Part shown: piece by piece, positions 1 to 17,145 of the stretch
How positions within the stretch are numbered: the stretch's first letter is position 1
Layout of the letters: each line of letters begins with the position of its first letter
Source: an uncultured Bacilli bacterium
GTDB lineage: Bacteria; Bacillota_I; Bacilli_A; RF39; UBA660
Length of the DNA stretch: 32,416 nt
NCBI GenBank assembly: GCA_944372215.1
Contig: CALVYL010000005.1
Coordinates: 1-32,416 of the forward strand
Reading direction: 5' to 3'
Notes under the pieces: generated by a model
Database searches by the model: none
Told to the model about the DNA's origin: nothing
Seen by the model: the letters and a program-made list of their open reading frames with translations, nothing else
Program-made: the position numbers and the translations under genes

Positions 1-267
1 ATTATTATTTATTATATAGTAATAATTAGTTATGGGATTAGTTCCTGTAGTTGTTGATATATTTATTGTTATACTATTATTTGTTGTTTCTACTAAATTA
101 ATACTATTTATTACTGGTTTTGTATATATATCAAAATATATATAACATCCATCTGATTTATTATTATATAATATTACTTTATTAGTAGTTCTATCAAATG
201 CTAATTCTCCCCCATTTTGACACAGATTTAAGGTCGAGTTGTGAAACTTCGAGGACTTAAATCTGTG
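1..267 (-). pseudogene. Start-less fragment of a surface-type protein, runs off the left edge
   Basis: The minus strand is open from an in-frame TGA (268-270) to the window edge, and the residues from about position 213 leftward read like a real protein: they are rich in Thr, Asn, Ile and Tyr, with stretches such as NSINLVETTNNSITINIS typical of extracellular Ig-like or fibronectin-like beta domains. No ATG, GTG or TTG lies in this frame, so the 5' end is missing. The open frame begins inside the inverted repeat at 217-271, as if the gene were cut there by an insertion, a rearrangement or a contig join. The product cannot be named. It could also be a chance open frame in AT-rich DNA, but the composition argues mildly against that. 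Confidence 0.4.
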
Positions 268-271
268 TCAA
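217..271. repeat. 55-bp inverted repeat with 16-bp perfect arms
   Basis: The arms TTGACACAGATTTAAG (217-232) and CTTAAATCTGTGTCAA (256-271) are perfect complements around a 23-nt centre. The centre can pair further (TCGAGTT with AACTTCGA, one bulge). With a 2-nt bulge the outer flanks CCATT and AATGG also pair. No T-run follows, so it does not look like a simple terminator. It could be a miniature transposable element or a fused pair of insertion-sequence ends; the GACACAG-like ends recall some IS families, but no transposase is nearby. Confidence 0.7.
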
Positions 272-284
272 TGGTTTTATTTAA

Positions 285-310
285 AAAAGTATAACTTTCC
301 TATTATATAA
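285..310. repeat. Copy 1 of a 26-nt dispersed repeat
   Basis: The 26 nt here match 21923-21948 with a single mismatch (25 of 26), in the same orientation on the plus strand. The core AAAGTATAACTTT is itself an inverted repeat. Both copies are in non-coding DNA close to the 3' end of a minus-strand unit. Function unknown; possibly part of a dispersed intergenic element. Confidence 0.55.
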
Positions 311-330
311 TTATGTAGAATTCTACATAA
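311..330. repeat. Perfect 20-bp palindrome
   Basis: TTATGTAGAATTCTACATAA is identical to its reverse complement. It lies between the 26-nt dispersed repeat and the frr terminator in gene-free DNA. A protein binding site or a short cruciform is possible; nothing nearby identifies a regulated gene. Confidence 0.6.
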
Positions 331-340
331 ATATAAAAAA

Positions 341-381
341 AGTAGCTATAAAACTGGATTACGCCATATTTTATAGCTACT
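341..381 (-). terminator. Intrinsic terminator after frr
   Basis: A 13-bp perfect stem (AGTAGCTATAAAA at 341-353 with its complement at 369-381) has a 15-nt loop and, read on the minus strand, is followed by a run of seven T. It lies 42 bp past the frr stop and ends the frr transcript. Confidence 0.9.
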
Positions 382-423
382 CGTTTCACTAATATTATAG
401 CAAAATTTTGAAAAAATTTCTAA

Positions 424-954
424 TCAAACTTGCATTAATTCTTCTTCTTTTTTCTTTATTTCTTCATCTACTATTTTATTATATTTAATAATTAGTTCTT
501 GTATTTCTTCTAAATACAATTTTTCTTCATCTTCAGGATATTCTTCCTTTTTTATCTGATTATTAGCATCTTGACGTATGTTCCTTAAAGCCACTTTTGC
601 TTCTTCACCAATAGCTTTAGCTTGTTTTACATAATCTCTTCTTCTATCTTCTGTTAAATCGGGAACTGTTAAAATAATAATTTCCCCATTATTTGTTGGT
701 GTAATACCAATATTAGCTTCATTAATAGCTCTTTCGATATCTTTAAGTGTCGATCTATCATAAGGCTTAATAAATAATTGTTTAGCTTCTGGTACTGTAA
801 TATTGGCAACACTCTGAATTGGTGTTGGAGTACCATAGTAACTAACCATTATACCATTAAGCATTGCTGGATTTGCTCGACCTGCTCTAATTGTTATTAA
901 TTTCTCTTGCAAACTAGTTATTGTTTGCTCCATCTTTTTTTCTGTTAAATCCAT
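424..954 (-). CDS. frr: Ribosome recycling factor
   Basis: RRF works with EF-G to split the post-termination ribosome. At 176 residues it is slightly shorter than the usual ~185 but collinear: it opens with MDLTEKKMEQTITSLQ, has the RAGRANPAML segment near residues 24-33, and ends in the long charged helix with DANNQIKKEE (about 128-137). The ATG at 954 follows AAGGAG at a good distance. It is last in a minus-strand run behind two exported proteins, 12 bp after the stop of the nearer one. In most bacteria pyrH would lie directly upstream; here those two small proteins occupy that position. A strong terminator follows. Confidence 0.97.
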   Translation of the reverse strand: MDLTEKKMEQTITSLQEKLITIRAGRANPAMLNGIMVSYYGTPTPIQSVANITVPEAKQLFIKPYDRSTLKDIERAINEANIGITPTNNGEIIILTVPDLTEDRRRDYVKQAKAIGEEAKVALRNIRQDANNQIKKEEYPEDEEKLYLEEIQELIIKYNKIVDEEIKKKEEELMQV

Positions 955-966
955 AAATTCTCCTTT

Positions 967-1743
967 TTAACTAATTGTTATAGTATCATTATAATTGATT
1001 CTGTTAGATATTACAATAAAATTCAATTCTAATTCACCAGTTTTACTAATACTAAGAGTTTTTTCAACACCATATTCCCCATTAACAACATTATCAATAG
1101 TACCATCAATATCAATTACTTGAACATCGCCATCTAAAACTTGGGTATCATGTAATCTATCTTCAACTAATGTTCTAATCTCATCATCAGTCACTTCAAA
1201 TATTTCTAATAATTCTTCAGCAGTATAAGCTGTTCCTGTTTCTCTATTAATAATATAACCTTTAATATTTTCAATTTCACTACCATTCAAACAATTATAA
1301 GTAAAATCATTTATTACTAAACTAATATAATCTCCGAAAACATTATATGTATATTCACGATATGGAAAACTATATAAATTTGCTTCGTTAGTACACGTTT
1401 GGCCTTCTTCAAGTTCGACATTATCTAAATTTACATATTCATTAGTAAAAGATTCTAATTCATTATGTAGTTCATTATTTATATTTTCAAATCCTTTAAT
1501 GTTAATGATGACATCTTGTTCAGATATATGTTCTTCATGTAATATGTCTTCAATATTTTCAAAATAAACGTATTCTTTAGTAGAATCTATTCTTATTTCT
1601 TTTAATTCTGTTACACCATTATTCGATTCATTGTTTTTATGATTATTTTGCATATAATCCATTAAGAAATAACCACCAACAATAAAGAATAATAAAACAA
1701 ATATAAAAATAATTAAGCCTATAATATTTTTTGTATTATCCAT
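967..1743 (-). CDS. Membrane-anchored exported protein, possibly DUF3298/RsiV-like
   Basis: This 258-residue protein has one N-terminal membrane segment (about residues 8-30, GLIIFIFVLLFFIVGGYFLM) followed by an Asn-rich linker and an acidic extracellular domain of about 215 residues. In the second half, a stretch with GDYISLVIND and then INRETGTAYTAEELLEIF resembles the pattern of DUF3298 domains (found in RsiV-type proteins), where a beta strand is followed by a 'TGK.. T..DLF' motif; this is a weak, by-eye match. It starts 8 bp after the stop of 1752-2363, behind a GAGGTAG-type ribosome binding site, and frr follows 12 bp later, so the three genes are probably cotranscribed. No function is assigned. 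Confidence 0.75.
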   Translation of the reverse strand: MDNTKNIIGLIIFIFVLLFFIVGGYFLMDYMQNNHKNNESNNGVTELKEIRIDSTKEYVYFENIEDILHEEHISEQDVIINIKGFENINNELHNELESFTNEYVNLDNVELEEGQTCTNEANLYSFPYREYTYNVFGDYISLVINDFTYNCLNGSEIENIKGYIINRETGTAYTAEELLEIFEVTDDEIRTLVEDRLHDTQVLDGDVQVIDIDGTIDNVVNGEYGVEKTLSISKTGELELNFIVISNRINYNDTITIS

Positions 1744-1751
1744 TATCTACC

Positions 1752-2363
1752 TCAACTTTCTAAATATTCTTGAAAAATTACAGTCAATTCTTGTTTTTTA
1801 CTATTAATATTAAATGTATTCCAATATTCACTTGGGGCTATATTGCCATTTCTAAAAGCAGTTTCCGTATCGAACAGTATTACCTCGTCATTGCAAACAA
1901 CTAAAAGTGACGGAGCATATATTTCTGCCACTCCATAATCATTATATGTTACATAATCAGATAATCTTTCAACAATTGCTTCGTATGTGCCATTATTATC
2001 TTCCCTGTTTTTAACAAAGTCATAATAATATATTTTTTCTATTCCAGTAGCTTTAGCCACATCATTAACTATATTAGCATAATAATTTACCCATTCACTA
2101 TTAATTGTTCCAAATAAAACAATACCTTTAGTACCATTTGCTATCATTAAAGCTGTTGTTGCATTAATATATTCGTAAACATTATCTTCACCAACTAAAT
2201 TAAATTCGGATGCAAATCTTTCATTATCAGGTAAATCTGGGTTATAATCTTGCATACCAATATAAATAAATGCTCCAATTAATATAATAAACAAAAATAA
2301 ATATATTACCATTTGCAATTTACTTGCAAATAGCGTTTCATGTTTAACTTTTATCTTTTCCAT
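1752..2363 (-). CDS. Membrane-anchored thioredoxin-fold-like protein without catalytic cysteines
   Basis: This 203-residue protein has a short cytoplasmic N-terminus, one membrane segment (about 17-37) and an extracellular domain. The pattern of a beta strand ending KGIVLFGTINSEWVNYYA, a helix, then IEKIYYYDF and later YAPSLLVVCNDEVI is what one expects from thioredoxin-like proteins: the active-site loop after the first strand and the 'cis-Pro' before the later strand (APS) are recognisable. The CxxC that should sit at the loop is replaced by SEWV, so it should not be a disulfide oxidoreductase. The assignment rests on pattern reading, not a search. An extended -10 promoter lies just upstream, so it probably heads its own transcript with 967-1743 and frr. 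Confidence 0.7.
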   Translation of the reverse strand: MEKIKVKHETLFASKLQMVIYLFLFIILIGAFIYIGMQDYNPDLPDNERFASEFNLVGEDNVYEYINATTALMIANGTKGIVLFGTINSEWVNYYANIVNDVAKATGIEKIYYYDFVKNREDNNGTYEAIVERLSDYVTYNDYGVAEIYAPSLLVVCNDEVILFDTETAFRNGNIAPSEYWNTFNINSKKQELTVIFQEYLES

Positions 2364-2378
2364 AATTACATCAATAAT

Positions 2379-2387
2379 ATTATACCA
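2379..2387 (-). promoter_or_regulatory. Extended -10 promoter for the 1752-2363 gene
   Basis: On the minus strand TGGTATAAT gives a perfect -10 with the TGn extension, 15 bp before the start codon. No good -35 is spaced correctly. It lies between the tsf terminator and the gene, which fits a separate transcription unit. The very short leader is the main reason for caution. Confidence 0.5.
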
Positions 2388-2440
2388 TTATTTTCGTACT
2401 TTAATAAATATATTTATTAAAAATTTGTCAAATTATAGTA

Positions 2441-2464
2441 AAAACCAAGCCATTGCTTGGTTTT
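2441..2464 (-). terminator. Intrinsic terminator overlapping the tsf stop codon
   Basis: AAAACCAAGC and GCTTGGTTTT pair perfectly around a 4-nt loop; read on the minus strand the stem is followed by TTTTTAC. It overlaps the last two bases of the tsf stop codon region and should end the rpsB-tsf transcript. Confidence 0.85.
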
Positions 2465-3341
2465 AGTTTCCTTTCACTTGATTCATTACTTCTTCAGCAA
2501 AATTATCATTTCTCTTGGCCATACCTTCACCAACCTCATAACGAATCATACTTTTAATTTCTCCACCATTGTTAGTTACATATTTTTCTACTGATAAATC
2601 GCTATCTTTAATAAATGCTTGTTCAGATAAACAGATTTCTTTATAGAACTTTTTAATACGGCCTTCAACCATCTTTTCAGCAATATCTGCTGGCTTTCCT
2701 TCATTCATTGCTTGTTCCTTTAATACAGTTCTTTCATTATCTATTACATCAGCAGGAACATCACTTGGAAAACAATATAATGGTTTCATGGCTGCAGCTT
2801 GCATTGCTACATCTTTAGCGATTTCTGAATTTGCTCCTTTAATAACTGTTAGTGCAGCAATTTTACCACCCATATGAATGTATGAACCAAAATATTCATC
2901 ATCACTTTTATTAACTATTGCAAATCTTCTTAAAGATAATTTTTCACCAATTTTAGCTGTTTTATTAACTATTAATTCACCAATAGTGCCATCAGTAGTC
3001 ATAAGTTCTTTAGCTTCATCTACAGTTTTTGCATCACTTTTAAGTAAAGTTTCACCAATTGTATCTATCATACTAACGAATTCTTCATTTTTACTTACAA
3101 AGTCAGTTTCACTATTAACCTCAACTATAACAGCTTTGTTGCCATCAATATAAATATTTGCTAGACCTTCGGCAGCAATACGACTTTCTTTTTTAGCAGA
3201 TTTAGCAATACCTTTTTCACGAAGCCAATTGATAGCTTCATCCATATTACCGTTAGTTTCTGCTAAAGCCTTTTTACAGTCCATCATTCCTGCACCAGTA
3301 GATTCCCGCAAATCTTTAACCATACTTGCTGTAATTTCCAT
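2463..3341 (-). CDS. tsf: Elongation factor Ts
   Basis: EF-Ts is the nucleotide exchange factor that regenerates EF-Tu-GTP. The 292-residue product has the typical N-terminal UBA-like module (MVKDLRESTGAGMMDCKKAL at about 7-26, then the NMDEAINWLREKG helix) and the core with VEVNSETDFVSKNEEF, which contains the Thr-Asp-Phe-Val contact to EF-Tu (around residues 78-84). Length is normal. It starts 11 bp after the rpsB stop behind an AGGAGG-type site, giving the conserved rpsB-tsf pair. A terminator at its stop codon separates it from the genes downstream. Confidence 0.98.
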   Translation of the reverse strand: MEITASMVKDLRESTGAGMMDCKKALAETNGNMDEAINWLREKGIAKSAKKESRIAAEGLANIYIDGNKAVIVEVNSETDFVSKNEEFVSMIDTIGETLLKSDAKTVDEAKELMTTDGTIGELIVNKTAKIGEKLSLRRFAIVNKSDDEYFGSYIHMGGKIAALTVIKGANSEIAKDVAMQAAAMKPLYCFPSDVPADVIDNERTVLKEQAMNEGKPADIAEKMVEGRIKKFYKEICLSEQAFIKDSDLSVEKYVTNNGGEIKSMIRYEVGEGMAKRNDNFAEEVMNQVKGN

Positions 3342-5342: not shown

Positions 5343-5483
5343 TTAACTAAACAATCTTTTTAATTGCCTTCCCACTGTTTTGCCTATTTCAAAAATCGTT
5401 TCAACTAAACCCGAGATGGCATTTAAAAGTGAACCAGATATTCCCCCAACAATAGATACTAATTCTTCTTTTTGTAAATACAT
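5343..5483 (-). CDS. Double-glycine-leader peptide 4 (bacteriocin-like)
   Basis: A 46-residue precursor. The 14-residue leader MYLQKEELVSIVGG fits the consensus for peptides cleaved after Gly-Gly by C39-peptidase ABC exporters (Leu at -11 from the cut, Glu-Leu pair, small-hydrophobic-x-Gly-Gly). The predicted 32-residue mature peptide (starts ISGSLLNAISGL, ends GRQLKRLFS) has no Cys, can form an amphipathic helix and ends in a cationic tail, as membrane-active peptides do. The ATG follows TAAGGAGG at 5 nt. It is last of four such genes and lies 15 bp after peptide 3. Antibacterial activity is inferred, and a signalling role is possible. Confidence 0.88.
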   Translation of the reverse strand: MYLQKEELVSIVGGISGSLLNAISGLVETIFEIGKTVGRQLKRLFS

Positions 5484-5498
5484 ATTACCTCCTTACTA

Positions 5499-5615
5499 TT
5501 ATTCAAAAAAACCACAAAAAACTCCTAGTAAAAATACTACTACACCGCCAAGACCTAACCAAAAGGTAGTACCTCCACCTTGAATTTCGTGTAATTCCGT
5601 ATTGTTTAAAGTCAT
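5499..5615 (-). CDS. Double-glycine-leader peptide 3 (bacteriocin-like, very hydrophobic)
   Basis: A 38-residue precursor with leader MTLNNTELHEIQGG, matching the others in length (14) and in the Glu-Leu and Gly-Gly positions. The predicted 24-residue mature part is almost a single membrane helix with closely spaced glycines (WLGLGGVVVFLLGVFCG) and one Cys, ending Phe-Phe-Glu. Glycine-spaced helices are common in two-peptide bacteriocins. The ATG follows AAAGGAGG with a 6-nt gap. Thirteen bp separate it from peptide 2 upstream. One unpaired Cys could support dimerisation. Confidence 0.87.
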   Translation of the reverse strand: MTLNNTELHEIQGGGTTFWLGLGGVVVFLLGVFCGFFE

Positions 5616-5628
5616 TTTATCCTCCTTT

Positions 5629-5775
5629 CTACATTGGGCAAATGCTATTAAAGATTAATCTACGAATGCTGCTACCCAAAGCAACACCCCAATTAAAAAT
5701 TCCTTTACAGACATTCAATAAAGAATTAATAAATCCTCCTTTGGTGTTTAATAACTCTTCTTTACTTAAATACAT
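5629..5775 (-). CDS. Double-glycine-leader peptide 2 (bacteriocin-like, two cysteines)
   Basis: A 48-residue precursor with leader MYLSKEELLNTKGG. The predicted 34-residue mature peptide begins FINSLLNVCKGIFNW and ends SSIRRLIFNSICPM; its two Cys (residues 23 and 46 of the precursor) could form a disulfide. The start at 5775 follows AAGGAGG at 5 nt; a longer in-frame reading to 5838 only runs into the preceding peptide gene in another frame and is not supported. It sits 10 bp after the stop of peptide 1. Confidence 0.88.
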   Translation of the reverse strand: MYLSKEELLNTKGGFINSLLNVCKGIFNWGVALGSSIRRLIFNSICPM

Positions 5776-5785
5776 ATTCACCTCC

Positions 5786-5929
5786 TTAATTTCTACTTTT
5801 ACAATAGCTTGGATTTGTATAACCATGGAGAAATCCACTAATAAATATTGAAATGCCTAATAAAGCTATTGTCCCTATAAAACCAAACCCACCACTAATT
5901 TTACTTAATTCTTCTTTTTGTAAATTCAC
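5786..5929 (-). CDS. Double-glycine-leader peptide 1 (bacteriocin-like)
   Basis: A 47-residue precursor starting with GTG directly after the TAA of the adaptor gene, behind AGGAGG. The leader NLQKEELSKISGG (after the initiator Met) fits the double-glycine consensus. The predicted 33-residue mature peptide begins with a hydrophobic stretch (FGFIGTIALLGISIFISGF) and ends in a polar tail with one Cys (HGYTNPSYCKSRN). It is first of four adjacent peptide genes behind a dedicated exporter. The GTG start, the SD only 4 nt away and the abutting stop suggest translation coupled to the adaptor gene. Confidence 0.86.
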   Translation of the reverse strand: MNLQKEELSKISGGFGFIGTIALLGISIFISGFLHGYTNPSYCKSRN

Positions 5930-6331
5930 TTAACCTCCTAGTACAATTTCTTTTATTTTAGTTTCCACTTTTTCTTTATCATGATAAACAGATATATCTA
6001 CTATACTATTTTCGGATAAATTACTATCAATATTTAAAACAATTTCTTGATAATTTATGTTATTGCTCAATAATACATCACTTATGTTAGCAATTTTAAA
6101 TTCATATTTTTGCTCATCAATTATTAAATATTCGCCATTGGTTATCGTATCAGAGTGTTCTATGGGAATATTTAATATTAAATTGGAATTTTTAATGTAA
6201 CCCTTGGTATTATATACATCATATACCTCAATTCTTGTAATATAAATGCTAGCAATAATAGTTATTATTACTAAAACAATAAATATTCGGTAAACATTAT
6301 ATTTAATATGAATTAGCTCATCATAATTCAT
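5930..6331 (-). CDS. Short HlyD-like exporter adaptor (membrane fusion-type) protein
   Basis: This 133-residue protein has one N-terminal membrane segment (about 13-32) and a beta-rich extracellular part. The pattern of NTKGYIKNSNLILNIPIEHS, a strand with TNGEYLIIDEQKYEFKI and a final strand pair resembles the beta-barrel end of HlyD/MesE-type adaptors that accompany C39-peptidase exporters. Those are usually 400-470 residues with a long coiled-coil hairpin, which is absent here. Its ATG overlaps the exporter stop (ATGA), and peptide 1 starts right after its own stop, so it belongs to the export locus. It could instead be the immunity protein, since no other candidate is present. Confidence 0.65.
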   Translation of the reverse strand: MNYDELIHIKYNVYRIFIVLVIITIIASIYITRIEVYDVYNTKGYIKNSNLILNIPIEHSDTITNGEYLIIDEQKYEFKIANISDVLLSNNINYQEIVLNIDSNLSENSIVDISVYHDKEKVETKIKEIVLGG

Positions 6332-8370
6332 TTTGTATCACCTACATACACAATTTTATCAAAAATATTATCATGGTTTTTATGAGTAATATAAATAATT
6401 GTTTTATTTTTGAATTTTTCGCGAATATTTTTCATAATTTTTTCCTCCAAAAAGTAATCAACCTCACTTAAAGCTTCATCGAGTATGAGAATTTGAAAAT
6501 TGTTGAGCAAGGCTCTTGCTAAAATTATTCTTTGCATCTCACCTCCCGAAATATTACCAATATCTTTGCCAATAATGGTATTATATCTTAAAGGCTTTTT
6601 CTTAACTATTTCATCAATTGCACATAACTTACATATTTGGAAAAATTGTTTTTCTGATACATTTCTATCAAGAATTATATTATTTCTAATAGTGTCAGTT
6701 AATATATTTTCATTTTGATTGACATATAAAATATTTTTCCGAATTGTAGCTAACGAAAGATCTTTGATATTAATAGAACCTATTAAAATATCACCCTTAT
6801 AGTCAGTAATATATTTATCTAACATTTGGCAAATTGTTGATTTACCACTACCACTAGGGCCCTTTATTGCTACAAACTCCCCACCTTGAATATCTAAATT
6901 AAAGTTGGTAAAAATATTATTAATATTATCATATGAATAAGTTACATTTTTTAAGCAAATACTATTATCTTTTAAAAGTGTAGCTTTTCCTTTAATCTCT
7001 TTATTATTACTTAAAAAATCATTTATTTTTTCATAAGTTGCTTTTAAGAAATTATATTTTGGTATACTATCTATACTATTTTTTATTGGATCTAAGAAAA
7101 AGCCTAATAAAGTATTGAATGTAACTAATGCCGTTATTTCTAATTCATTATGAAATATTAGATAAAAGCCCCAAGTATTAATAACAAAAAAGCCTAGCTC
7201 ACTTATCCAATTTTTAAGTGTTCGTTCTTTATTTAAAAAGTTACTTAATAAAAAGTTATCATACAAAAAGTTACATAAACTTTTTTCAATACTTTTTAAA
7301 CAAGAATCAGTTAGATTAAGATTTTTAATACTATTTATCATATTAATATTTTCGAGTAAAGTATTATTAAAATTAGCTTCTAACTCGATATTGTGATATG
7401 CCTTTTTAAATATCAGTTTGCTAGATATTAAACCGATAATTAAGTATAAGATTAGACAAAGAAAAAGGGCCAAAAATAAATTCTTACTTATACTCATAAG
7501 CAAAGGCACTGATGCAAACATTAATAAAAAATCTAAAATGAATGAGACAAATATTTCAGTAAACAAACTTTTTATATTAGATAATTCATTAACTCTAGTT
7601 ACTATCTCTCCACTAGTTCTACTAACGATTACATCTAAAGGGAGGTTAAAGGTATGTTCTAAAAACGAAGCATTTAATAGACAATCAATATTTTTATTTA
7701 AGTGATTTTCTAGGTAATTTCTAAGATATGTAAATATAAGCTTTAATATAACTATAATAGCAAATATTAGTACAAAAATTCTTAGATATTTCTCATAATA
7801 ATTAGCAGTTATGCCATCAATCATTACTTGAAAATAATAACTACCCGCTATAGTAAAAATCATCATAAATATACTCATGAGAATGATATAAATTAACAAC
7901 TTTTTTTCTTCTAACAAAACTTTTAAAAATATACTTAATAAGCTATTTTCTTTTTTGAAAGAAATTATTTTAATCCGCGGATACATTATTAAAAGAATTT
8001 TGCTCCATTGTTGATAAAATTCATTTTTGTTCATTACAACCTTACCTTTAGCTGGATCCATTAATATTACTTTATTTTTGGTAATTTTGTAAATTACAAC
8101 ATAATGTTGGAAGCCATTTTTTAAGTTAATGTGTGCTATCGCTGGCAATTTTATTTTTTTATCATCTAATGATTTTACTTTAATGCCTACGCTATCAAAG
8201 CCGTATTTTTTACTAGCTTCAATTAAATTTAAGGCACTTGTCCCATCATTAGATGCTTTTACATCAAGTCTTATGCGTTCGAGTGAAACATAACCACCAT
8301 AATGTTGAACAATCGATGCCAAAGCACATACTCCGCAATCTTTAAAATCTCGTTGTCTAACAATTTTCAC
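6328..8370 (-). CDS. Peptidase-containing ABC exporter (C39 protease, double-glycine peptides)
   Basis: This protein cleaves double-glycine leaders and exports the mature peptides. From the GTG at 8370 it is 680 residues. The C39 peptidase is at about 1-130 with Cys12 (RDFKDCGVCALAS), His89 (QHYVVIY) and Asp105 (MDPAKG). Six membrane segments lie at about 140-420. The ATPase has Walker A GPSGSGKST (about 503-511), signature ISGGEMQRI (about 600), Walker B ILILDEALSEVD and the H-loop ITHK. The GTG was chosen because GGGAGG lies 9 nt upstream and it gives the standard KIVRQRDFKDCG beginning; an ATG 66 bp further upstream has no ribosome binding site. It heads the peptide operon. Confidence 0.96.
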   Translation of the reverse strand: MKIVRQRDFKDCGVCALASIVQHYGGYVSLERIRLDVKASNDGTSALNLIEASKKYGFDSVGIKVKSLDDKKIKLPAIAHINLKNGFQHYVVIYKITKNKVILMDPAKGKVVMNKNEFYQQWSKILLIMYPRIKIISFKKENSLLSIFLKVLLEEKKLLIYIILMSIFMMIFTIAGSYYFQVMIDGITANYYEKYLRIFVLIFAIIVILKLIFTYLRNYLENHLNKNIDCLLNASFLEHTFNLPLDVIVSRTSGEIVTRVNELSNIKSLFTEIFVSFILDFLLMFASVPLLMSISKNLFLALFLCLILYLIIGLISSKLIFKKAYHNIELEANFNNTLLENINMINSIKNLNLTDSCLKSIEKSLCNFLYDNFLLSNFLNKERTLKNWISELGFFVINTWGFYLIFHNELEITALVTFNTLLGFFLDPIKNSIDSIPKYNFLKATYEKINDFLSNNKEIKGKATLLKDNSICLKNVTYSYDNINNIFTNFNLDIQGGEFVAIKGPSGSGKSTICQMLDKYITDYKGDILIGSINIKDLSLATIRKNILYVNQNENILTDTIRNNIILDRNVSEKQFFQICKLCAIDEIVKKKPLRYNTIIGKDIGNISGGEMQRIILARALLNNFQILILDEALSEVDYFLEEKIMKNIREKFKNKTIIYITHKNHDNIFDKIVYVGDTK

Positions 8371-8430
8371 AATCTTTTTCCTCCCTTCGCAATATATATT
8401 AGACATTTTTACCCGATTTTCTTTTTTTTG

Positions 8431-8476
8431 AGGCAAAAATTTTTCATATTTTTTTGTTACCCCCGTTTTTTTGCCT
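8431..8476. repeat. Inverted repeat in the exporter leader
   Basis: AGGCAAAAA (8431-8439) and TTTTTGCCT (8468-8476) are perfect 9-bp complements with a 28-nt spacer. They lie in the 5' leader of the exporter gene and could form a hairpin or be two half-sites for a regulator. Confidence 0.4.
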
Positions 8477-8653: not shown

Positions 8654-8730
8654 TGGTGTCCATGATGAGATTCGAACTCATGACCTTTACCTTCGGAGGG
8701 TAACACTCTATCCAGCTGAGCTACATGGAC
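8654..8730 (-). tRNA. tRNA-Arg (anticodon CCG)
   Basis: The 77-nt gene folds as a full cloverleaf: acceptor GTCCATG/CATGGAC, D arm starting TAGCTCAGCTGGATAGAG, anticodon stem TTACC/GGTAA with loop CTCCGAA (anticodon CCG, 8694-8696), T arm ATGAG-TTCGAAT-CTCAT, discriminator A and an encoded CCA. It reads CGG, a rare codon in such an AT-rich genome. It starts 17 bp after the ileS stop and is probably cotranscribed with it. Confidence 0.96.
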
Positions 8731-8747
8731 ACACATTCATTTTAACA

Positions 8748-11700
8748 TTATTTTTTAGAAATAGCAATTAATACTTTTTCTTCATTAACACTAAATTCTT
8801 CACCATCTGTTACATCAGTTGTAATTGCATCTGCTAAAGTTTCTTTTTGGATGTAATCCGTAAAAGCAGCAACTGCTGATTTTATCTTATCACTAGCATT
8901 GTAGCTAATAATTATTCTATCAGTTAGTTCAAGATTAGCATTTTTACGCATTTGTTGAACTTTAGATACTAATTCTCTAGCAATTCCTTCATTAATTAAT
9001 TCATCCGTTAAATGCGTATTTAAAATAACATATTCATTATTTTCCATACCAACATTAAATCCAGTTTTAGCATCAATTCTAATATCTACCATAGTTGAGG
9101 TAACCTCTAATGTTTTACCAGCGATATTCATGGTAATTTCCTCATTTTTGCGCAATTTATTAATATCGTCAATGGATAATTCTAATAATTTTGCTTGGAA
9201 TTCTTTTAAATCTTTACCCAATGTTTTACCTACCTCTTTAAAGTTTGGTCTAACAGTAAAGTTCATATAAGTTTGGGTATCATCAATAAATGTTACTTTT
9301 TTAACATTCAATTCTTCTTTAATTAAATCGGTAAGATTGCCAATTAGTTGTTCGTTTTTACCATCAAGTAAAATTTCTGCAAGCGGTTGACGAACTCTAA
9401 TCTTATTTTCTTCTCTTACATACCTACCAATACTGATTAAGTCACGAACTTTATCCATCTTTTCTTCCAATAATTCATCGATTAAAGATTCATCATATTT
9501 AGGGAAATCAGATGTATGAACGGAATATTCACCAGTTAAATTAGTATAGATTTCTTCAGATAAGAATGGTACAACTGGAGCCATCATTTGTGATAATCCT
9601 ACTAATACCTCATAAGTTGTAATGTATACTGATTTTTTAGAATCATTAAGTTCAGAACCCCAGAAACGATCTCTATTTCTTCTGATATACCAATTAGATA
9701 ACTCATCTGATACAAAGTCTGTTAGAGCTCTAACTACTTTATTTAAATCGTATTCGTCGTATGATTCAGTTACATATTTTAGTAATTTATTATATTTACT
9801 GATTAGCCAACGATCAATTTCTTCCCGATTTTCTACTGGAATATTGCAATCCTTAATATCGATATTATCAATATTGGCATACATTGTAAAGAAATTATAT
9901 GTGTTTCTTAAAGGATTAAAGAATTTAGAGTGAACCTCTTTTAGACCATTAATATCAAATTTAAGTGGTATCCATACTGGAGAGACATAAGGAAGATAAA
10001 ACCTAACGGTATCAGCACCATATTCTTTCATTGTAGTAAATGGTTCAACTATATTACCGCGGCTTTTACTCATTTTTTTGCCTTCAGCATCCAGTAATAA
10101 GTCATTTACTAATACATTTTTATAAGGGGATACACCTTTGACAAATGTCGAAATAACTATTAAAGAATAGAACCAGCCACGAGTTTGATCGATTCCTTCA
10201 CAGATAAAATCTGCTGGGAATTGCGATTCAAATAATTCTTTATTTTCAAATGGATAATGATATTGTGCAAAAGGCATAGAACCTGAGTCAAACCAGCAGT
10301 CTAAAACATCTGGAATTCTGCTCATAGCTTCACCGCACTTTGGACATTTAATATGGATTTCATCAATATAAGGACGATGTAGATCAAGATTATCTATATC
10401 TACATTTTCAATAGCTTTTTCTTTTAATTCTGCAATAGAACCAAGCATTTCGGTATGTCCGCAAGAACAAGTATAATAAGGAATTGGGCATCCCCAATAA
10501 CGAGATCTTGATACGGCCCAGTCTTTTAAGTTTTCTAGCCAGTTACCAAAGCGCTTTTCTCCAACATAAGCCGGATACCAATTTACTTTTTTATTTTCTT
10601 CAATTATTTTATCTTTATATTTTGTTACAGCGATATAATAACTTGGTAAAGTATAATAAATTAGTTTAGAACCGCATCTCCAACAATGAGGATAGTTGTG
10701 CGTAATTCTTTGCTTTTTAAATAATTTATCATTTTCTTTTAAATATTTAATTACCCCATCATCAGTATCAAAAACTAGCATGCCTTGCCATGGTCCTTCG
10801 GTAAAACAACCATCTTTACCAACAGGATTTACATAAGGTAAGTCATATATTTTACCAACACGAGCATCATCTTCACCGAAAGCTGGTGCCATATGAACTA
10901 CACCAGTACCAGAATCAACTGTAACATATTCATCACAACAAACATAGAAGGCTTTGCCAGGGACTTTTAATTCCGGTATTAGTTGCTCATATTCCATGTA
11001 TTCTAAATCTTTACCTTTATAAGTTTCCTGTATTTTAGCTTCACTACCTAAAACAGCATTTACTAAAGCTTCTGCTAAAATGAATTTATTGCCGCGAGAT
11101 TCACATAAACAGTAAGTTTCATTAGGATTTACACATAGTGCTACATTAGAAAGTAGTGTCCATGGAGTTGTTGTCCAGGCTAAGAAATAAGCGTCTTTAT
11201 CTTTACATTTCATTGGAACAATAACAGTATCAGTTTCCGTATCTTCATAACCTTGAGCTACCTCATGAGAAGCAAGTGGTGTGCCACATCTTGGGCAATA
11301 TGGAGTTACTCTAGTACCTTCATAAAATAAACCTTGTTCAAAATATTGTTTTAAAATCCACCATTCTGTTTCAATATATTCATTTTTATATGTTAAATAA
11401 GGATTTTTAACATCAACGAATTGACCCATTTTATTGGTTAAATCAGTAAAAGCTGCTTCGTTTTCCATAACACTATCATGACAAGCTTTGTTAAACTTTT
11501 CAATACCTAAAGCTTCAATATCTTTTTTGCTTTTTAAACCTAACTTTTGTTCAACATGATTTTCAATTGGCAAGCCATGAGTATCCCAACCGATTTTACG
11601 AATGACTTTATGGCCAGTCATAGCATGGTACTTACAAATGATATCTTTAAGGTTCTTAGCAATCATGTGGTGTAAGCCCGGAAAACCATTAGCAAAGGCT

Positions 11701-11846
11701 GGTCCATCATAAAATACAAAGGTTGGATCATCTTTATGAGCTTCTAATTGTTTTTCATAAATTCCTTGAACTCCACCCCATTTCTTCAAGATATCTTGTT
11801 CTACCTCAAAATAAGGTCTTTTGTCTAAACTTTTAAACTTTTCCAT
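8748..11846 (-). CDS. ileS: Isoleucyl-tRNA synthetase, long (IleRS2-type) with GLHH in place of HxGH
   Basis: The enzyme charges tRNA-Ile. At 1032 residues it has the long, eukaryote-like IleRS2 architecture. The first signature is DGPAFANGFPGLHHMIAKNL: residues 57-60 are Gly-Leu-His-His where class I enzymes have His-x-Gly-His. The second signature, GKKMSKSRGN (Met592), is intact. The CP1 editing domain is present with AWTTTPWTLLSN near 223-234, and Cys pairs (CPRCG, CPKCG) mark zinc-type knuckles. The tryptophan-containing ENEAAFTD...WW segments and the C-terminal anticodon domain follow. In published work on IleRS2/MupA, the GxHH swap gives very strong mupirocin resistance. It is preceded by an Ile-type T-box and followed by tRNA-Arg. 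Confidence 0.97.
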   Translation of the reverse strand: MEKFKSLDKRPYFEVEQDILKKWGGVQGIYEKQLEAHKDDPTFVFYDGPAFANGFPGLHHMIAKNLKDIICKYHAMTGHKVIRKIGWDTHGLPIENHVEQKLGLKSKKDIEALGIEKFNKACHDSVMENEAAFTDLTNKMGQFVDVKNPYLTYKNEYIETEWWILKQYFEQGLFYEGTRVTPYCPRCGTPLASHEVAQGYEDTETDTVIVPMKCKDKDAYFLAWTTTPWTLLSNVALCVNPNETYCLCESRGNKFILAEALVNAVLGSEAKIQETYKGKDLEYMEYEQLIPELKVPGKAFYVCCDEYVTVDSGTGVVHMAPAFGEDDARVGKIYDLPYVNPVGKDGCFTEGPWQGMLVFDTDDGVIKYLKENDKLFKKQRITHNYPHCWRCGSKLIYYTLPSYYIAVTKYKDKIIEENKKVNWYPAYVGEKRFGNWLENLKDWAVSRSRYWGCPIPYYTCSCGHTEMLGSIAELKEKAIENVDIDNLDLHRPYIDEIHIKCPKCGEAMSRIPDVLDCWFDSGSMPFAQYHYPFENKELFESQFPADFICEGIDQTRGWFYSLIVISTFVKGVSPYKNVLVNDLLLDAEGKKMSKSRGNIVEPFTTMKEYGADTVRFYLPYVSPVWIPLKFDINGLKEVHSKFFNPLRNTYNFFTMYANIDNIDIKDCNIPVENREEIDRWLISKYNKLLKYVTESYDEYDLNKVVRALTDFVSDELSNWYIRRNRDRFWGSELNDSKKSVYITTYEVLVGLSQMMAPVVPFLSEEIYTNLTGEYSVHTSDFPKYDESLIDELLEEKMDKVRDLISIGRYVREENKIRVRQPLAEILLDGKNEQLIGNLTDLIKEELNVKKVTFIDDTQTYMNFTVRPNFKEVGKTLGKDLKEFQAKLLELSIDDINKLRKNEEITMNIAGKTLEVTSTMVDIRIDAKTGFNVGMENNEYVILNTHLTDELINEGIARELVSKVQQMRKNANLELTDRIIISYNASDKIKSAVAAFTDYIQKETLADAITTDVTDGEEFSVNEEKVLIAISKK

Positions 11847-11860
11847 AATTTCCTCCCTAA

Positions 11861-12076
11861 AAAAGGGATAGTACCAAAAGGAGTGCTAATGCACGGTACC
11901 ATCCCTTAAATTTTCTTAATTATCTTAACGCGATTAACGAAATAACTTACTAACTTTCAGCTATTTAACTCCCGAGTGATTTGTATTTTTTCTAAAATAT
12001 TCTACTCACACCTAACAAGAACTCTCTTAAAATTATCCAAAATACACATGTCTCGTTCTTCGTTTTTAATAAAACT
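11861..12076 (-). promoter_or_regulatory. T-box riboswitch of ileS
   Basis: The ~215-nt leader has the hallmarks of a T-box: stem I parts GAACGAGAC, AGAGAG and GTGAGTAGAA, then the conserved T-box stretch GGGATGGTACCGTGC (11891-11905), which can pair as an antiterminator or fold into the terminator. Uncharged tRNA-Ile should stabilise read-through. The specifier is in the GAATATTTTAG part, where Ile codons ATA and ATT can both be read; I could not fix which one is used. Confidence 0.92.
11865..11905 (-). terminator. T-box terminator hairpin
   Basis: GGGATGGTACC and GGTACTATCCC pair over 11 positions with one mismatch, and on the minus strand the stem is followed by TTTTTT just before the ileS ribosome binding site (GGGAGG). 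Confidence 0.88.
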
Positions 12077-12142: not shown

Positions 12143-12952
12143 TCATAATAATTTATCAATTTTTTCTAAAAATAATGCAACGCCATCTTCATTATTATCA
12201 TAATCGGTAATATATTTGGCACTATCTTTAATTATTTGGGAAGCATTTTTCATCGCAATACCACAGCCTGCATTTTTTATTATTTCTTTATCATTTAAAT
12301 TATCACCAAAATAAATCACTTGAGAAAGTTGAAGATTTAATTTATTACAAAGATAACTTATAGAATTATATTTGTTAGTTTTCGATGGCATTATAACTAA
12401 ATGGTTTATATTTTTAAGTTTATTATTCATTGTTATACAATTGAGATTTTGAAAATTTCGACTGATTATTTTTTCGGCTTCTTGGAGATAATTTACATTA
12501 TCAAAAAAAGCATTTATTCTAGCAATATTAATATTTTTTATATCTTCTATTTTTGTGATTTTTATTTCAAAATCTGAATTTTTACTTTCATTTAATTTAC
12601 TATAAAAATAATAATTATATATTCCGCAAAAATCAATTTTATATACAGCGGGCTCTAATATTTCAAATATTTTTATACAAAAATCATAAGATAATGATTC
12701 GGTAAATATTATTTTATTACTTTTAACATCATATATATTTAAACCATTATTTAGTAACAAATAGTCAAATAAAGAAATATCAACATTATATTTAACGCTA
12801 TTTAATGTCCTAGCAGTAGCACCAATTAAATAGTAACCATCTTCCCTCTTTTTGCGCAAAATTTCGATTGTTTTTTTGGTTAATTGTTTTTTATCATTTA
12901 ATAATGTACCATCAAAATCTACAGCAATCATTTTAAATTTTTTTCTAACCAT
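12143..12952 (-). CDS. Cof-type HAD-superfamily phosphatase
   Basis: This 269-residue soluble enzyme is predicted to hydrolyse a small phosphorylated metabolite. HAD motif I is AVDFDGTLLND (nucleophile Asp12, Asp14), motif II is the Thr in GATART (about 44-49), and the C-terminal motif III/IV stretch is YFGDNLNDKEIIKNAGCGIAM. The inserted C2B-type cap lies between them, as in the Cof/YidA group. The start has no clear Shine-Dalgarno and lies 3 bp after the stop of the aldolase-like gene, so translation is probably coupled. It is the last gene of the six-gene operon; no terminator is evident before the ileS promoter. The substrate is unknown but is likely an intermediate of this operon. Confidence 0.88.
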   Translation of the reverse strand: MVRKKFKMIAVDFDGTLLNDKKQLTKKTIEILRKKREDGYYLIGATARTLNSVKYNVDISLFDYLLLNNGLNIYDVKSNKIIFTESLSYDFCIKIFEILEPAVYKIDFCGIYNYYFYSKLNESKNSDFEIKITKIEDIKNINIARINAFFDNVNYLQEAEKIISRNFQNLNCITMNNKLKNINHLVIMPSKTNKYNSISYLCNKLNLQLSQVIYFGDNLNDKEIIKNAGCGIAMKNASQIIKDSAKYITDYDNNEDGVALFLEKIDKLL

Positions 12953-12955
12953 AAA

Positions 12956-14227
12956 TCATTCACTTACACTTTCATATAATTCTAATACACTAGCAATATT
13001 ATCCATAATTATATTATCTACTGTATTATCTAGTAATCCCTTCTTTATTTTTAAATATTGTTGAGGAAAAAAAGTTTCAACCAAATATATAGGAATTTCC
13101 ATATTTGTTAAATTTTCTTTTAATTTGTAAATAGCGGACTGAACATTTTGGTTTTCTAAGTAATATCTAGTTCTATCAGAAAAAGAATATAATAATTCTG
13201 CTTCAAAATATTTATCCGTTTTATTGTAATATTGATTAAAATACTCCGGCTTTTTTAGCATTTCATTTTTTAATATTACATCTAAATTTGATTTATCAGC
13301 AACAGGTAACATATTTTCAATATACTGTAAAAATAATAAAGTTTTTAAATAAGTACGTGTTAATATAGGTCCAATTTTTAAAATTTTAAAATTATTATCC
13401 CGTAATAATTCTAAGTTTTTTTTATTCTGATAATCTGTAGAATGGGCTTCTAAAAACAAATTATGGAAATCATATTTTTTTTCTATAGTATCTATTTTTG
13501 ATGTTTGCACATCATTAATTCCAAAACTTAAACCAGTTTGGGCAACAATAGCTATAACATATTTCCATTTTTTTGGAATATGGCGTTTTTCAAATTCTTT
13601 CTTATACAATTCTATATCTTTATAAATATTTTCAAAATCTATTTTTGTCTTTGAATTATTCGTATTATTTTTATATCCACCAGCAAACGGAACCTCACTA
13701 CCCAAAACATAAAATGGATGAATATAATCTTTCGTTTCTGCCATTTTTTGTTCTATTATTTTTTCTGAATATTGTATTAAATCAACAGTCCTTTTAACTA
13801 TAACGTCCTTATCAAATATTATATCATCTTCCAATTTCATACTACAATCTATATGAATTTTTGCATAACCTGCATCAATACACAACTTTATTAAATCTTG
13901 AGCATTTTTCATGGCAATATATTCTTTTTTATCACACCAAGGAAGAGGACCTAGATGATCACCTCCAAAGATTATATTTTTAACTGGATAATGTACCTTT
14001 TCAGCTAATTCTAAAACCATAGTTTTAAATTCTAAAGGATTTAATCCCGTATACCCACCATATTGATTAACCTGATTAGATGTTGATTCAATTAATATGC
14101 ATTTATTTTTATTTTTTTGGGACATTAAAATGTTTTTTAAAACCTCTTTATTTGATGTACATATGGAAAGCATAATATTGTTTGGTGATCGATTAATGAA
14201 CTTTAATTGTTTTTCTAATAAATTCAT
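12956..14227 (-). CDS. GatZ/KbaZ-like class II tagatose-bisphosphate aldolase homologue
   Basis: This 423-residue TIM-barrel protein matches the 'non-catalytic subunit' family of tagatose-1,6-bisphosphate aldolase. The hallmark blocks are IESTSNQVNQYGGYTGLNP (about 47-65), FGGDHLGPLPW (about 88-98), the KIHIDCSMKLEDD block and VLGSEVPFAGG. In GatZ/KbaZ these proteins support the true aldolase (GatY/KbaY), but no such partner gene is here, and no other galactitol or galactosamine genes are seen. The protein may therefore act alone on a phosphorylated ketose, or have another role. ATGA overlap with the peptidase-like gene upstream and a 3-bp gap to the phosphatase place it firmly in the operon. 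Confidence 0.88.
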   Translation of the reverse strand: MNLLEKQLKFINRSPNNIMLSICTSNKEVLKNILMSQKNKNKCILIESTSNQVNQYGGYTGLNPLEFKTMVLELAEKVHYPVKNIIFGGDHLGPLPWCDKKEYIAMKNAQDLIKLCIDAGYAKIHIDCSMKLEDDIIFDKDVIVKRTVDLIQYSEKIIEQKMAETKDYIHPFYVLGSEVPFAGGYKNNTNNSKTKIDFENIYKDIELYKKEFEKRHIPKKWKYVIAIVAQTGLSFGINDVQTSKIDTIEKKYDFHNLFLEAHSTDYQNKKNLELLRDNNFKILKIGPILTRTYLKTLLFLQYIENMLPVADKSNLDVILKNEMLKKPEYFNQYYNKTDKYFEAELLYSFSDRTRYYLENQNVQSAIYKLKENLTNMEIPIYLVETFFPQQYLKIKKGLLDNTVDNIIMDNIASVLELYESVSE

Positions 14228-14916
14228 TTAGCATCATCTTTGACTTTGGGAATAAATTTTTCTACCTGGCCATAAAACTCAATTTCTTTGGTTAGTCTAT
14301 TATAAATAATTGCCCCATCATCAAATATAGCATAAACATTTTTGTTTTTTTCATTAGCTACATTTTGAAGCTTATCAAAATATAATTTATTTCTTATAGA
14401 ATGAACATCTAAATAAAATGGATCATCTAAAACCCCAAACCCATCATAAAATGCAAAATATTTATAATAATTATTTTTAGCAGTAATAAAATACCTTTTC
14501 AATTGCAAATCTGCACCAGCACTAAAACCTATAATTATACCTTTATAATGTTTTATATTATAAAGAAGTTCTGTTTCTTGAACAACTTTACTATACAACA
14601 TCTCTGGATTACCTCCGGTTAAAACTAAAATGTCACTTTCATCTATATATGTTTTAAAATTCGCTAAATTATTTTTATCATAACAATTTAATACCATTAT
14701 ATTTTTAGGATTTACACCTAAGTTAATTAAAGATCCAACGTATTTTTTTTGTCTTCTTTCATTAAAAAATTCGTTTGCAAATTTCTCATAATCCAACTCC
14801 GTGGGAAAAGCCCATGCAATAATAACTGCCTTAAAATTTGATTTAATAATTTTTTTTAATCTATCCTGAACAAGATTCAAGCCTTTTTCGTAATCACTCA
14901 ATAAAATACTATACAC
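14224..14916 (-). CDS. Peptidase S51 / dipeptidase E-like protein
   Basis: This 230-residue protein has the class I glutamine-amidotransferase-like fold of the S51 family (peptidase E, cyanophycinase). It shows VLTGGNPEML (about 98-107), the nucleophile elbow IGFSAGAD with Ser132, and YLDVHSIRNKL with Asp170 and His172, which corresponds to the family's His motif. Known members cleave Asp-X dipeptides or cyanophycin, but many are uncharacterised. It starts with GTG behind GGAGAT, 2 bp after the synthetase-like gene, and its stop overlaps the aldolase-like start by 4 bp. In this operon it may release or recycle an aminoacylated product; that is inference only. Confidence 0.85.
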   Translation of the reverse strand: MYSILLSDYEKGLNLVQDRLKKIIKSNFKAVIIAWAFPTELDYEKFANEFFNERRQKKYVGSLINLGVNPKNIMVLNCYDKNNLANFKTYIDESDILVLTGGNPEMLYSKVVQETELLYNIKHYKGIIIGFSAGADLQLKRYFITAKNNYYKYFAFYDGFGVLDDPFYLDVHSIRNKLYFDKLQNVANEKNKNVYAIFDDGAIIYNRLTKEIEFYGQVEKFIPKVKDDAK

Positions 14917-14918
14917 TT

Positions 14919-15989
14919 TTATCTCCTTTCTCTTTTCAATACTTTTACACTATTTTGCATATTAAATTGATTTTTAATAATATAATCTACACTTTCAACT
15001 AAGTTTGTATTAATCCCATTTCCATTACAAATTATTGAATATAACAATTCTAAGTCAGCATTGGTCAATTTTTTCAAATATTTTAAAATAGTATCATCTA
15101 TTTTTATATTTTTATTTTTCCATTTCATACTAAATAAAATTGCTAGCTTTCTAAAGGTATTATTTTCCAAAAAATTAGGGTTATCTGAAATTTGTTTTAA
15201 GTTATCAATGTAAGGAGTTCCTAACAGAACAGTTTTTGAATCATTCTGTAAACATTTTTCTAAAACTCCAACTAAAAATAATTGATAAACCATTTTATTA
15301 CCACTAACAACTACTTTTTCGGTATTGGGAAAATTAGCAAGATATGTTGCCCATAAAAAATCAATATCAATGTTATAACATCTACCATTAAAATCAAATT
15401 GGACTCCTGTGTTTCTATCTCTGGAAATAGTTAAATAAGAGTTTAATACTGTTTGTTCATATGTTTTAATATCTCTATTTAAATAATCTGGTAAGAAAGC
15501 AATGGCTTCCCTTTTGATGCCATTTGGAGTAAAAACTAATATTTTTTCTGAATACTTTTGGCATTTTGAACCACAAGTTTTACAATACATTTCTCCATCT
15601 TTGTAGGTAAATTTCAAATTATTAGGATTGCAAGTAGCGATTTTACTTTCTTCAATTTCAACTACCCCACAATCACATTTATAAACACTGGAAACCATCT
15701 CACTTATATATCCAAGTTGTACTAATTTTTCTATGTTGTTTATTAAAATATCTTTGTTTTGATTATCATACCATAGTGCATCATATTTAATGCCATTGCT
15801 ATTTAAAGATTTTATATAACCATCTAGCATTTGACTCCGGTCATTAAATGAATCCAACAAATTTACGCAATGGTAATATTTACCATTTAATATATTACGC
15901 AAAGCTTCACAAATTATAGGTGTTACAAATTTACCATAATTTTCGCCATCAACTGGCATCATAGGTAAAGTTAATATTATTTTTTCCAT
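14919..15989 (-). CDS. Class I aminoacyl-tRNA synthetase-like protein with degenerate signatures
   Basis: This 356-residue protein resembles the catalytic part of MetRS-type class I synthetases. It opens with LTLPMMPVDGENYGKFVTP, the first strand and signature region, but the HxGH is Asn17-Tyr-Gly-Lys20. A zinc-type knuckle follows (Cys105, Cys107, Cys120, Cys136, Cys139, Cys143). The LTISRDRNTGVQF stretch (about 186-198) matches the MetRS 'ISR..WGI' block. The KMSKS region is not recognisable. No anticodon-binding domain is evident, since full MetRS needs about 500 or more residues. It may aminoacylate or adenylate a small molecule or carrier, or bind a nucleotide without catalysis. It starts inside the nucleotidyltransferase gene (41-bp overlap) with its own AAGGA site. 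Confidence 0.75.
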   Translation of the reverse strand: MEKIILTLPMMPVDGENYGKFVTPIICEALRNILNGKYYHCVNLLDSFNDRSQMLDGYIKSLNSNGIKYDALWYDNQNKDILINNIEKLVQLGYISEMVSSVYKCDCGVVEIEESKIATCNPNNLKFTYKDGEMYCKTCGSKCQKYSEKILVFTPNGIKREAIAFLPDYLNRDIKTYEQTVLNSYLTISRDRNTGVQFDFNGRCYNIDIDFLWATYLANFPNTEKVVVSGNKMVYQLFLVGVLEKCLQNDSKTVLLGTPYIDNLKQISDNPNFLENNTFRKLAILFSMKWKNKNIKIDDTILKYLKKLTNADLELLYSIICNGNGINTNLVESVDYIIKNQFNMQNSVKVLKRERR

Positions 15990-17145
15990 ATTTCTTCCTT
16001 CTTTCTATTAAATCTTTTTTTATTTTATCAACCACTAGTAACCATTGTATATCTAATTCTGTAAAATTATATTTTAAAACATTATCATTGTGCAATCCAT
16101 AAGGAATATTTTGGATAATACAATAATTTGACAATTTTTCTACTAACCAAAAATATTTATATATTTCATAAAATACATCTTCTTGTTGATATTGAGACAT
16201 AATTTCTAACAAATTAAAATATTGAATTTGTTTACCATCGTTTATTAAAATATATCTTAAAATTGAAAAATATTTAAATATAATATTAAAATGATGGCTT
16301 TGATAATAATGTTTTACATCACAAATCTTATTACTTTTTAACTCATATTGTTCTTGCAACTCATTTATAAGTGAATCGATTTTTTGAATAATATAATTTG
16401 TAGTAATCAATTTACATTCTTCAGCAAAAACTTGTTTATACATTTTAGCAAAAGCTTTCTTTCCATAAATTACATCAAAACAATGAGTATATTCTTCATC
16501 TTCCATTTTTATTTTTTCTATTAAATATTCTTTTAAATCGGAAAGATTTCGGGAATTTAAATATTGTAAATAAAATCGTCTTTTTTTGGCACTAGAATAT
16601 GTATAATTAAGAATTTCATTTTTAGTTATCAATTGAATTTCTAAAATATTATTGTCCATTAATTTAGTAATTTTATCTTTATTATCATGAAAATTTAAAA
16701 TAAATGTTGGATCTATACTATCTCTTCTTTTTCGTAATATTTTTGCAACTATAAAGCAGATAATTTCCTCATATAAATAATCATCTAATGGGGCGCTATA
16801 GAAAAAATGTAAATCTAAATCACTAGCTAATTTATTTGTTCCCCGGGCATAACTACCAGAAATAAATACACATTCCAATTTTTCGAGCTTCGTTTGATAT
16901 AAAGTAATAACATCATTAATTATACTGATAACAATATTTTTACATTTTGTAATATGATTTAACATCTCCTTAAATGAATAATTTTTTAATTCATTTTTAT
17001 CAATATTAAATAAATAATCAAGATTTTTCTTATACTTTTTTTGTAAATACGATATATTATTTGTTAATTCTCTATAATCTGTAATACTCAAGTTTATTTT
17101 GACTGTCTCATTAAAATTTATTTTATTTATATTTAACTGTTTCAT
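15949..17145 (-). CDS. Polymerase-beta-type nucleotidyltransferase
   Basis: This 398-residue protein has the core motif of the nucleotidyltransferase fold, FISGSYARGTNKLASDLDLHF, with Gly-Ser at 97-98 and the metal-binding Asp109 and Asp111. A third acidic residue may be Glu169 in ILEIQLI. About 95 residues precede the core and a long helical region (about 180-390) follows, unlike short MNT-type antitoxins and closer in plan to DUF294- or aminoglycoside-transferase-like proteins. It would transfer a nucleotide monophosphate to a small molecule or protein. It begins in an ATGA overlap with the rel gene and overlaps the next gene by 41 bp, so it is translationally coupled on both sides. Confidence 0.82.
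   Translation of the reverse strand: MKQLNINKINFNETVKINLSITDYRELTNNISYLQKKYKKNLDYLFNIDKNELKNYSFKEMLNHITKCKNIVISIINDVITLYQTKLEKLECVFISGSYARGTNKLASDLDLHFFYSAPLDDYLYEEIICFIVAKILRKRRDSIDPTFILNFHDNKDKITKLMDNNILEIQLITKNEILNYTYSSAKKRRFYLQYLNSRNLSDLKEYLIEKIKMEDEEYTHCFDVIYGKKAFAKMYKQVFAEECKLITTNYIIQKIDSLINELQEQYELKSNKICDVKHYYQSHHFNIIFKYFSILRYILINDGKQIQYFNLLEIMSQYQQEDVFYEIYKYFWLVEKLSNYCIIQNIPYGLHNDNVLKYNFTELDIQWLLVVDKIKKDLIERRKKYGKNNINFTYDAS

Follow-up and report, generated by a model that had tools for sequence, protein, structure and literature searches.

Class I aminoacyl-tRNA synthetases carry HxGH at their first signature motif. A variant in which signature positions 1 and 3 are swapped, the G/AXHH motif, was described in 2023 by Brkic et al., who found it in 86 of 163 type 2 isoleucyl-tRNA synthetases (IleRS2) and in none of the type 1 enzymes (IleRS1) (PMC10485003). 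GxHH in IleRS2 gives mupirocin Ki values in the millimolar range with little catalytic loss. The natural ALHH enzyme of Deinococcus radiodurans has a Ki of 6.6 mM (6600 uM), which becomes 8.1 uM when the motif is changed to HVGH, and the opposite change from HVGH to GVHH raised the Ki approximately 175-fold in TtIleRS2 and approximately 430-fold in PmIleRS2 (PMC10485003). The motif is displaced in IleRS2, where a histidine at the third position is tolerated and substitutes for the lost first histidine, and in a model this third-position histidine clashes with mupirocin (PMC10485003). The G/AXHH enzymes of D. radiodurans and Streptomyces griseus keep KMSKS, and such an enzyme can be the sole housekeeping IleRS (PMC10485003).

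The window analyzed here, a stretch of 32,416 nucleotides from an uncultured gut-type Bacilli bacterium, contains a complete type 2 ileS of 1032 aa on the reverse strand (8748..11846), as assigned by TIGR00392, Pfam, and PDB matches. The open reading frame scores 922.9 bits against the TIGR00392 ileS profile, compared with a cut-off of 621.4, and encodes the domains tRNA-synt_1 (PF00133), Anticodon_1 (PF08264), and DUF5915 (PF19302, residues 840-1031), while zf-FPG_IleRS was absent from the Pfam domain search. The DUF5915 C-terminus is also found in MupA, whereas the IleRS1 control from the same family (L110) possesses zf-FPG_IleRS instead. Editing-domain motifs are located at residues 225 (TTTPWT) and 313 (GTGVVHMAPAFGEDD). 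The top PDB matches are chains of Priestia megaterium IleRS2, aligned over residues 14-1029. In a tree of 174 rows (a quick build under LG+G4, with SH-aLRT support only), the 18 IleRS1 rows, among them E. coli, are all separated at 100% SH-aLRT from IleRS2, the side on which the window enzyme lies. Long branches were flagged for E. coli and for a divergent KFSKS group, and the placement of the latter was left unused. A tRNA-Arg(CCG) gene (8654..8730, reverse strand) lies directly downstream of ileS, as a neighbor outside the mechanism considered here.

At the first class I signature (residues 57-60; 11667..11678, reverse strand), the codons GGC TTA CAC CAC encode Gly-Leu-His-His in place of HxGH, and the second signature reads as a canonical KMSKS (residues 591-595; 10062..10076, reverse strand). 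GLHH aligns without gaps onto HVGH of the P. megaterium chains 8c8u and 8c8v, as well as onto GVHH of the motif-swapped chain 8c8w, which is the highest-scoring PDB match. The same register is obtained in a 185-row alignment, and alignment with MupA and IleRS2 rows places GLHH at the HxGH site, with no canonical HxGH there. The P. megaterium IleRS2 (8c8u, 8c8v, 8c9d; GVHH mutant 8c8w) is the best solved homologue, although its wild type carries HVGH and exists beside an IleRS1, whereas the GLHH of the window is natural and belongs to the only IleRS found. An AlphaFold model of the window enzyme reached a pLDDT of 80 overall and approximately 57 around the motif, which is too low for the geometry of His59 to be read. 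The first-pass annotation had described Gly-Leu-His-His at residues 57-60 of an otherwise complete enzyme of IleRS2 length with an intact KMSKS, and all of these points hold; the span it gave (11664-11681) is the motif with one flanking codon on each side.

A T-box leader RNA precedes the gene (11876..12069, reverse strand). Its score against RF00230 is 83.4 bits (E 1.4e-18), below the gathering score of 93, and for this reason the default Rfam scan missed it. The leader of a congener (L180) exceeds the gathering score with 93.1 bits, and 13 of 20 related ileS loci pass it, IleRS1 and IleRS2 both being represented. The specifier AUC (Ile), at 11978..11980 on the reverse strand, is invariant in 13 aligned ileS leaders from genes of both types, and the UGGUACC bulge is nearly so. 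By direct reading of the sequence, the bulge (UGGUACCGUG) and an overlapping terminator hairpin, GGGAUGGUACC...GGUACUAUCCC-U6, occupy 11853..11903 of the reverse strand. The earlier placement of the gene under a T-box is therefore supported by the E value, the passing leader of the congener, and the conserved specifier and bulge. As is typical of the T-box family, uncharged tRNA-Ile would act on the leader RNA to raise ileS expression.

The source draft genome comprises 1.01 Mb in 68 contigs and is 73.5% complete, and owing to this incompleteness eight congeners were also examined for copy number. Only the window gene passed the ileS cut-off in the 73.5%-complete draft, where no second ileS was found; the other PF00133 matches were considered for this role and rejected, as contig 11 encodes a ValRS and the match on contig 39 is part of a LeuRS. 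Each of the eight congeners (92-100% complete) possesses exactly one ileS above the cut-off, of type 2 size. One IleRS per genome in both the draft and the congeners agrees with the earlier description of the gene as housekeeping. Because it is apparently the only IleRS, the window enzyme would have to be active, and its aminoacylation activity is presumably retained.

The trait carried by the window gene is an already known mechanism and is explained by published work, and the earlier statement that some IleRS2 enzymes carry GxHH with very high resistance and preserved catalysis agrees with the published kinetics (PMC10485003). By homology, the GLHH enzyme would work like the published GxHH IleRS2, and high intrinsic resistance to mupirocin at the target level is expected of the organism. 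Transfer of the mechanism to the window enzyme is strong because the enzyme type and motif are the same, KMSKS is intact, and no other IleRS is apparent; judged from its sequence, strong mupirocin resistance is well predicted. The natural non-canonical enzymes that have been measured (D. radiodurans ALHH, S. griseus) come from other phyla than the window organism, for which resistance is a prediction, and the T-box lies outside that work. We are highly confident in regarding the gene as the sole, chromosomal, T-box-regulated IleRS2 of an uncultured gut-type Bacilli lineage, with a GxHH motif that is a family-wide trait and with predicted target-level resistance. The reach of a resistance mechanism already on record would thereby grow to include a large gut lineage that is uncultured. 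If most members of the lineage survive mupirocin, as predicted, the compound is a possible selective agent for cultivating them. Our literature search, in a limited library, found nothing relevant on RF39 and mupirocin.

The distribution of the motif was examined at several levels. Among relatives with a readable motif (genome_contigs), 77 of 78 carry GxHH, and the remaining one (L074) carries HIGH. A survey of the GTDB family of the window drew 117 genomes, nearly all from different genera, from which 100 ileS loci were fetched. All 76 readable IleRS2 in this survey carry GxHH. A further 17 loci encode IleRS1, 16 with HxGH and one with HIGT (L112), four belong to the divergent KFSKS/KFSKT group, and three are fragments without the motif site. 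The 17 genomes with IleRS1 (L101-L117) possess this enzyme, with its HxGH and zinc-finger C-terminus, in place of IleRS2. The family IleRS1 performs the same job and is likewise under an AUC T-box, but it is approximately 905 aa long, carries HxGH and a zf-FPG_IleRS C-terminus, and is approximately 29% identical to the window IleRS. IleRS1 and IleRS2 replace each other within this family. In a draw of 392 genomes of the class, the GxHH DNA pattern was present in 14 of 19 genomes of the family of the window and in 0 of 373 genomes of other families. Within the sampled part of the class, the GxHH IleRS2 is characteristic of a single family, in which certain genera rely on IleRS1. The motif is common to most of the family and was not recently acquired by the window genome.

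The near-universal presence of GxHH among the IleRS2 of the family also fits another account, in which the swapped motif is an active-site alternative that is neutral or became fixed historically and resistance is a by-product, as gut Bacilli may rarely meet mupirocin. Such an account is consistent with the sister genera that rely on a sensitive-type IleRS1 as their sole enzyme and with L074 (gene 260-3202), which combines HIGH with KMHKS, is nested among GxHH/KMHKS enzymes, and apparently represents a natural return from the swapped motif. However, the swap requires several nucleotide changes and has been gained at least twice in IleRS2 (PMC10485003), which points to selection. We consider neutral or historical fixation a serious contender that falls somewhat short of an even chance, and it bears on why the motif persists and not on the effect of the motif.

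Predicted target-level resistance of a resident housekeeping enzyme must also be weighed against an acquired or mobile determinant of the MupA kind. The first-pass annotation had grouped the motif with MupA-type enzymes and had suggested that the gene could be a reservoir of resistance, and neither suggestion withstands comparison. MupA and the window enzyme are alike in being type 2 IleRS with DUF5915. However, they are 39% identical, and MupA is encoded by a plasmid-borne extra copy. The staphylococcal mupA product carries a canonical HTGH at the first signature, so MupA resistance cannot rest on GxHH, which corrects the idea that it does; a plasmid IleRS2 of Sutcliffiella carries HAGH at this site. 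The window IleRS scores 869 bits against the NCBIfam MupA profile NF000257, under its cut-off of 1900. The window ileS is chromosomal, single-copy, as in the congeners, and T-box-regulated, and it lies in an ordinary bacterial gene neighborhood, around which no mobile element was seen. In the plasmid collection, no match to the window IleRS exceeds approximately 54% identity, and mupA reaches 39%. The 54% match comes from NZ_CP154629.1 of Acetoanaerobium noterae, a replicon of 2.6 Mb that is labeled a plasmid and is probably a chromosome. Its clostridial GIHH IleRS2 (L088) falls inside the clade of the gut Bacilli family, which suggests ileS2 transfer between classes; ileS2 has thus probably crossed taxa at some point, which favors mobility to that extent. 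A mobile or MupA-like origin was nonetheless rejected on identity, motif, and context, which already contradict it, and we regard it as very improbable; the window ileS is a lineage-wide trait and not a mobile resistance gene. An error of sequencing or assembly at GLHH, or a pseudogene, might be imagined for a draft in 68 contigs whose near relatives are mostly metagenome assemblies, but this reading is refuted to the point of near impossibility by the intact 1032-aa frame and the recurrence of the swap in genomes that many studies assembled independently (77/78 relatives and 76/76 family IleRS2).

The relatives also exhibit variation at the second signature, in which the window enzyme takes no part, as it carries neither KMHKS nor KIHH. 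KMHKS replaces KMSKS in 49 of the 174 tree rows, with at least seven His/Ser changes on the tree. The corresponding DNA pattern was present in 73 of 288 genomes and 28 of 102 genera in a draw of the order, and in the 392-genome draw of the class it was found in two genomes, both from the family of the window, and in none from other families. Loci with KMHKS include many of L042-L084, together with L121, L126-L131, L136, L137, L143, L147, L149, L152, L155, L163, L165, L166, L172, L174, L179, L185, L189, L191, and L199. The divergent KFSKS/KFSKT group carries HVGH, GIHH, or KIHH at the first signature. KIHH, with lysine at the first position, occurs in KFSKT-type IleRS (L140 of G070, L218, L219, and L221) of four species of one genus; in three of them the ileS is complete and the sole one over the cut-off, and in the fourth it is cut by a contig end. 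Two genomes contain pieces of two IleRS, with KMHKS and KMSKS in G085 (L152/L153) and with KFSKS and KMHKS in G095 (L159/L160), and these represent either real paralogues or mixed bins.

In the published IleRS1 structure, the backbone NH of a KMSKS-loop lysine binds the nonanoate of mupirocin, and in IleRS2 the nonanoate tail occupies the cleft that separates the two motifs (PMC10485003). KMHKS would place a second extra histidine beside the cleft that holds this tail, and because of the position of the tail by the motifs, KMHKS could affect the binding of inhibitor or ATP. The family of the window may offer a natural test bed in which both class I signatures have been rewritten in an essential enzyme, and KMHKS might modulate ATP binding or contribute to resistance, a proposal for and against which we see equal weight. 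Our literature search, restricted to a limited library, found no description of KMHKS or KIHH and nothing relevant on KMSKS substitutions; such sequences may already lie in databases without having drawn comment. This side result has more novelty than the GxHH of the window gene itself. KMHKS and KIHH sharpen the question of how far both signatures can change while a class I synthetase stays essential and active.

Two further loci of the window deserve mention. Upstream of ileS, a cluster on the reverse strand (12143-17145) encodes a HAD-IIB phosphatase, a GatZ/KbaZ-like protein, an S51-peptidase-like protein, an orphan protein, and a nucleotidyltransferase. The orphan (14919-15989, reverse strand; 356 aa) matched nothing in Pfam, NCBIfam, or the PDB and has three clear relatives only, at 28-30% identity, among 119 genomes. 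It contains a Cys-rich knuckle, and on visual inspection its sequence resembles the core of a class I synthetase in degenerate form; its AlphaFold model, built from a single sequence, has a pLDDT of 36.5. On the other side of ileS, also on the reverse strand, lies a bacteriocin-type operon (5343-8436), composed of a C39-peptidase ABC exporter (6328-8436), an accessory protein (5930-6331), and four small open reading frames with double-glycine leaders (5786-5929, 5629-5838, 5499-5615, and 5343-5483).
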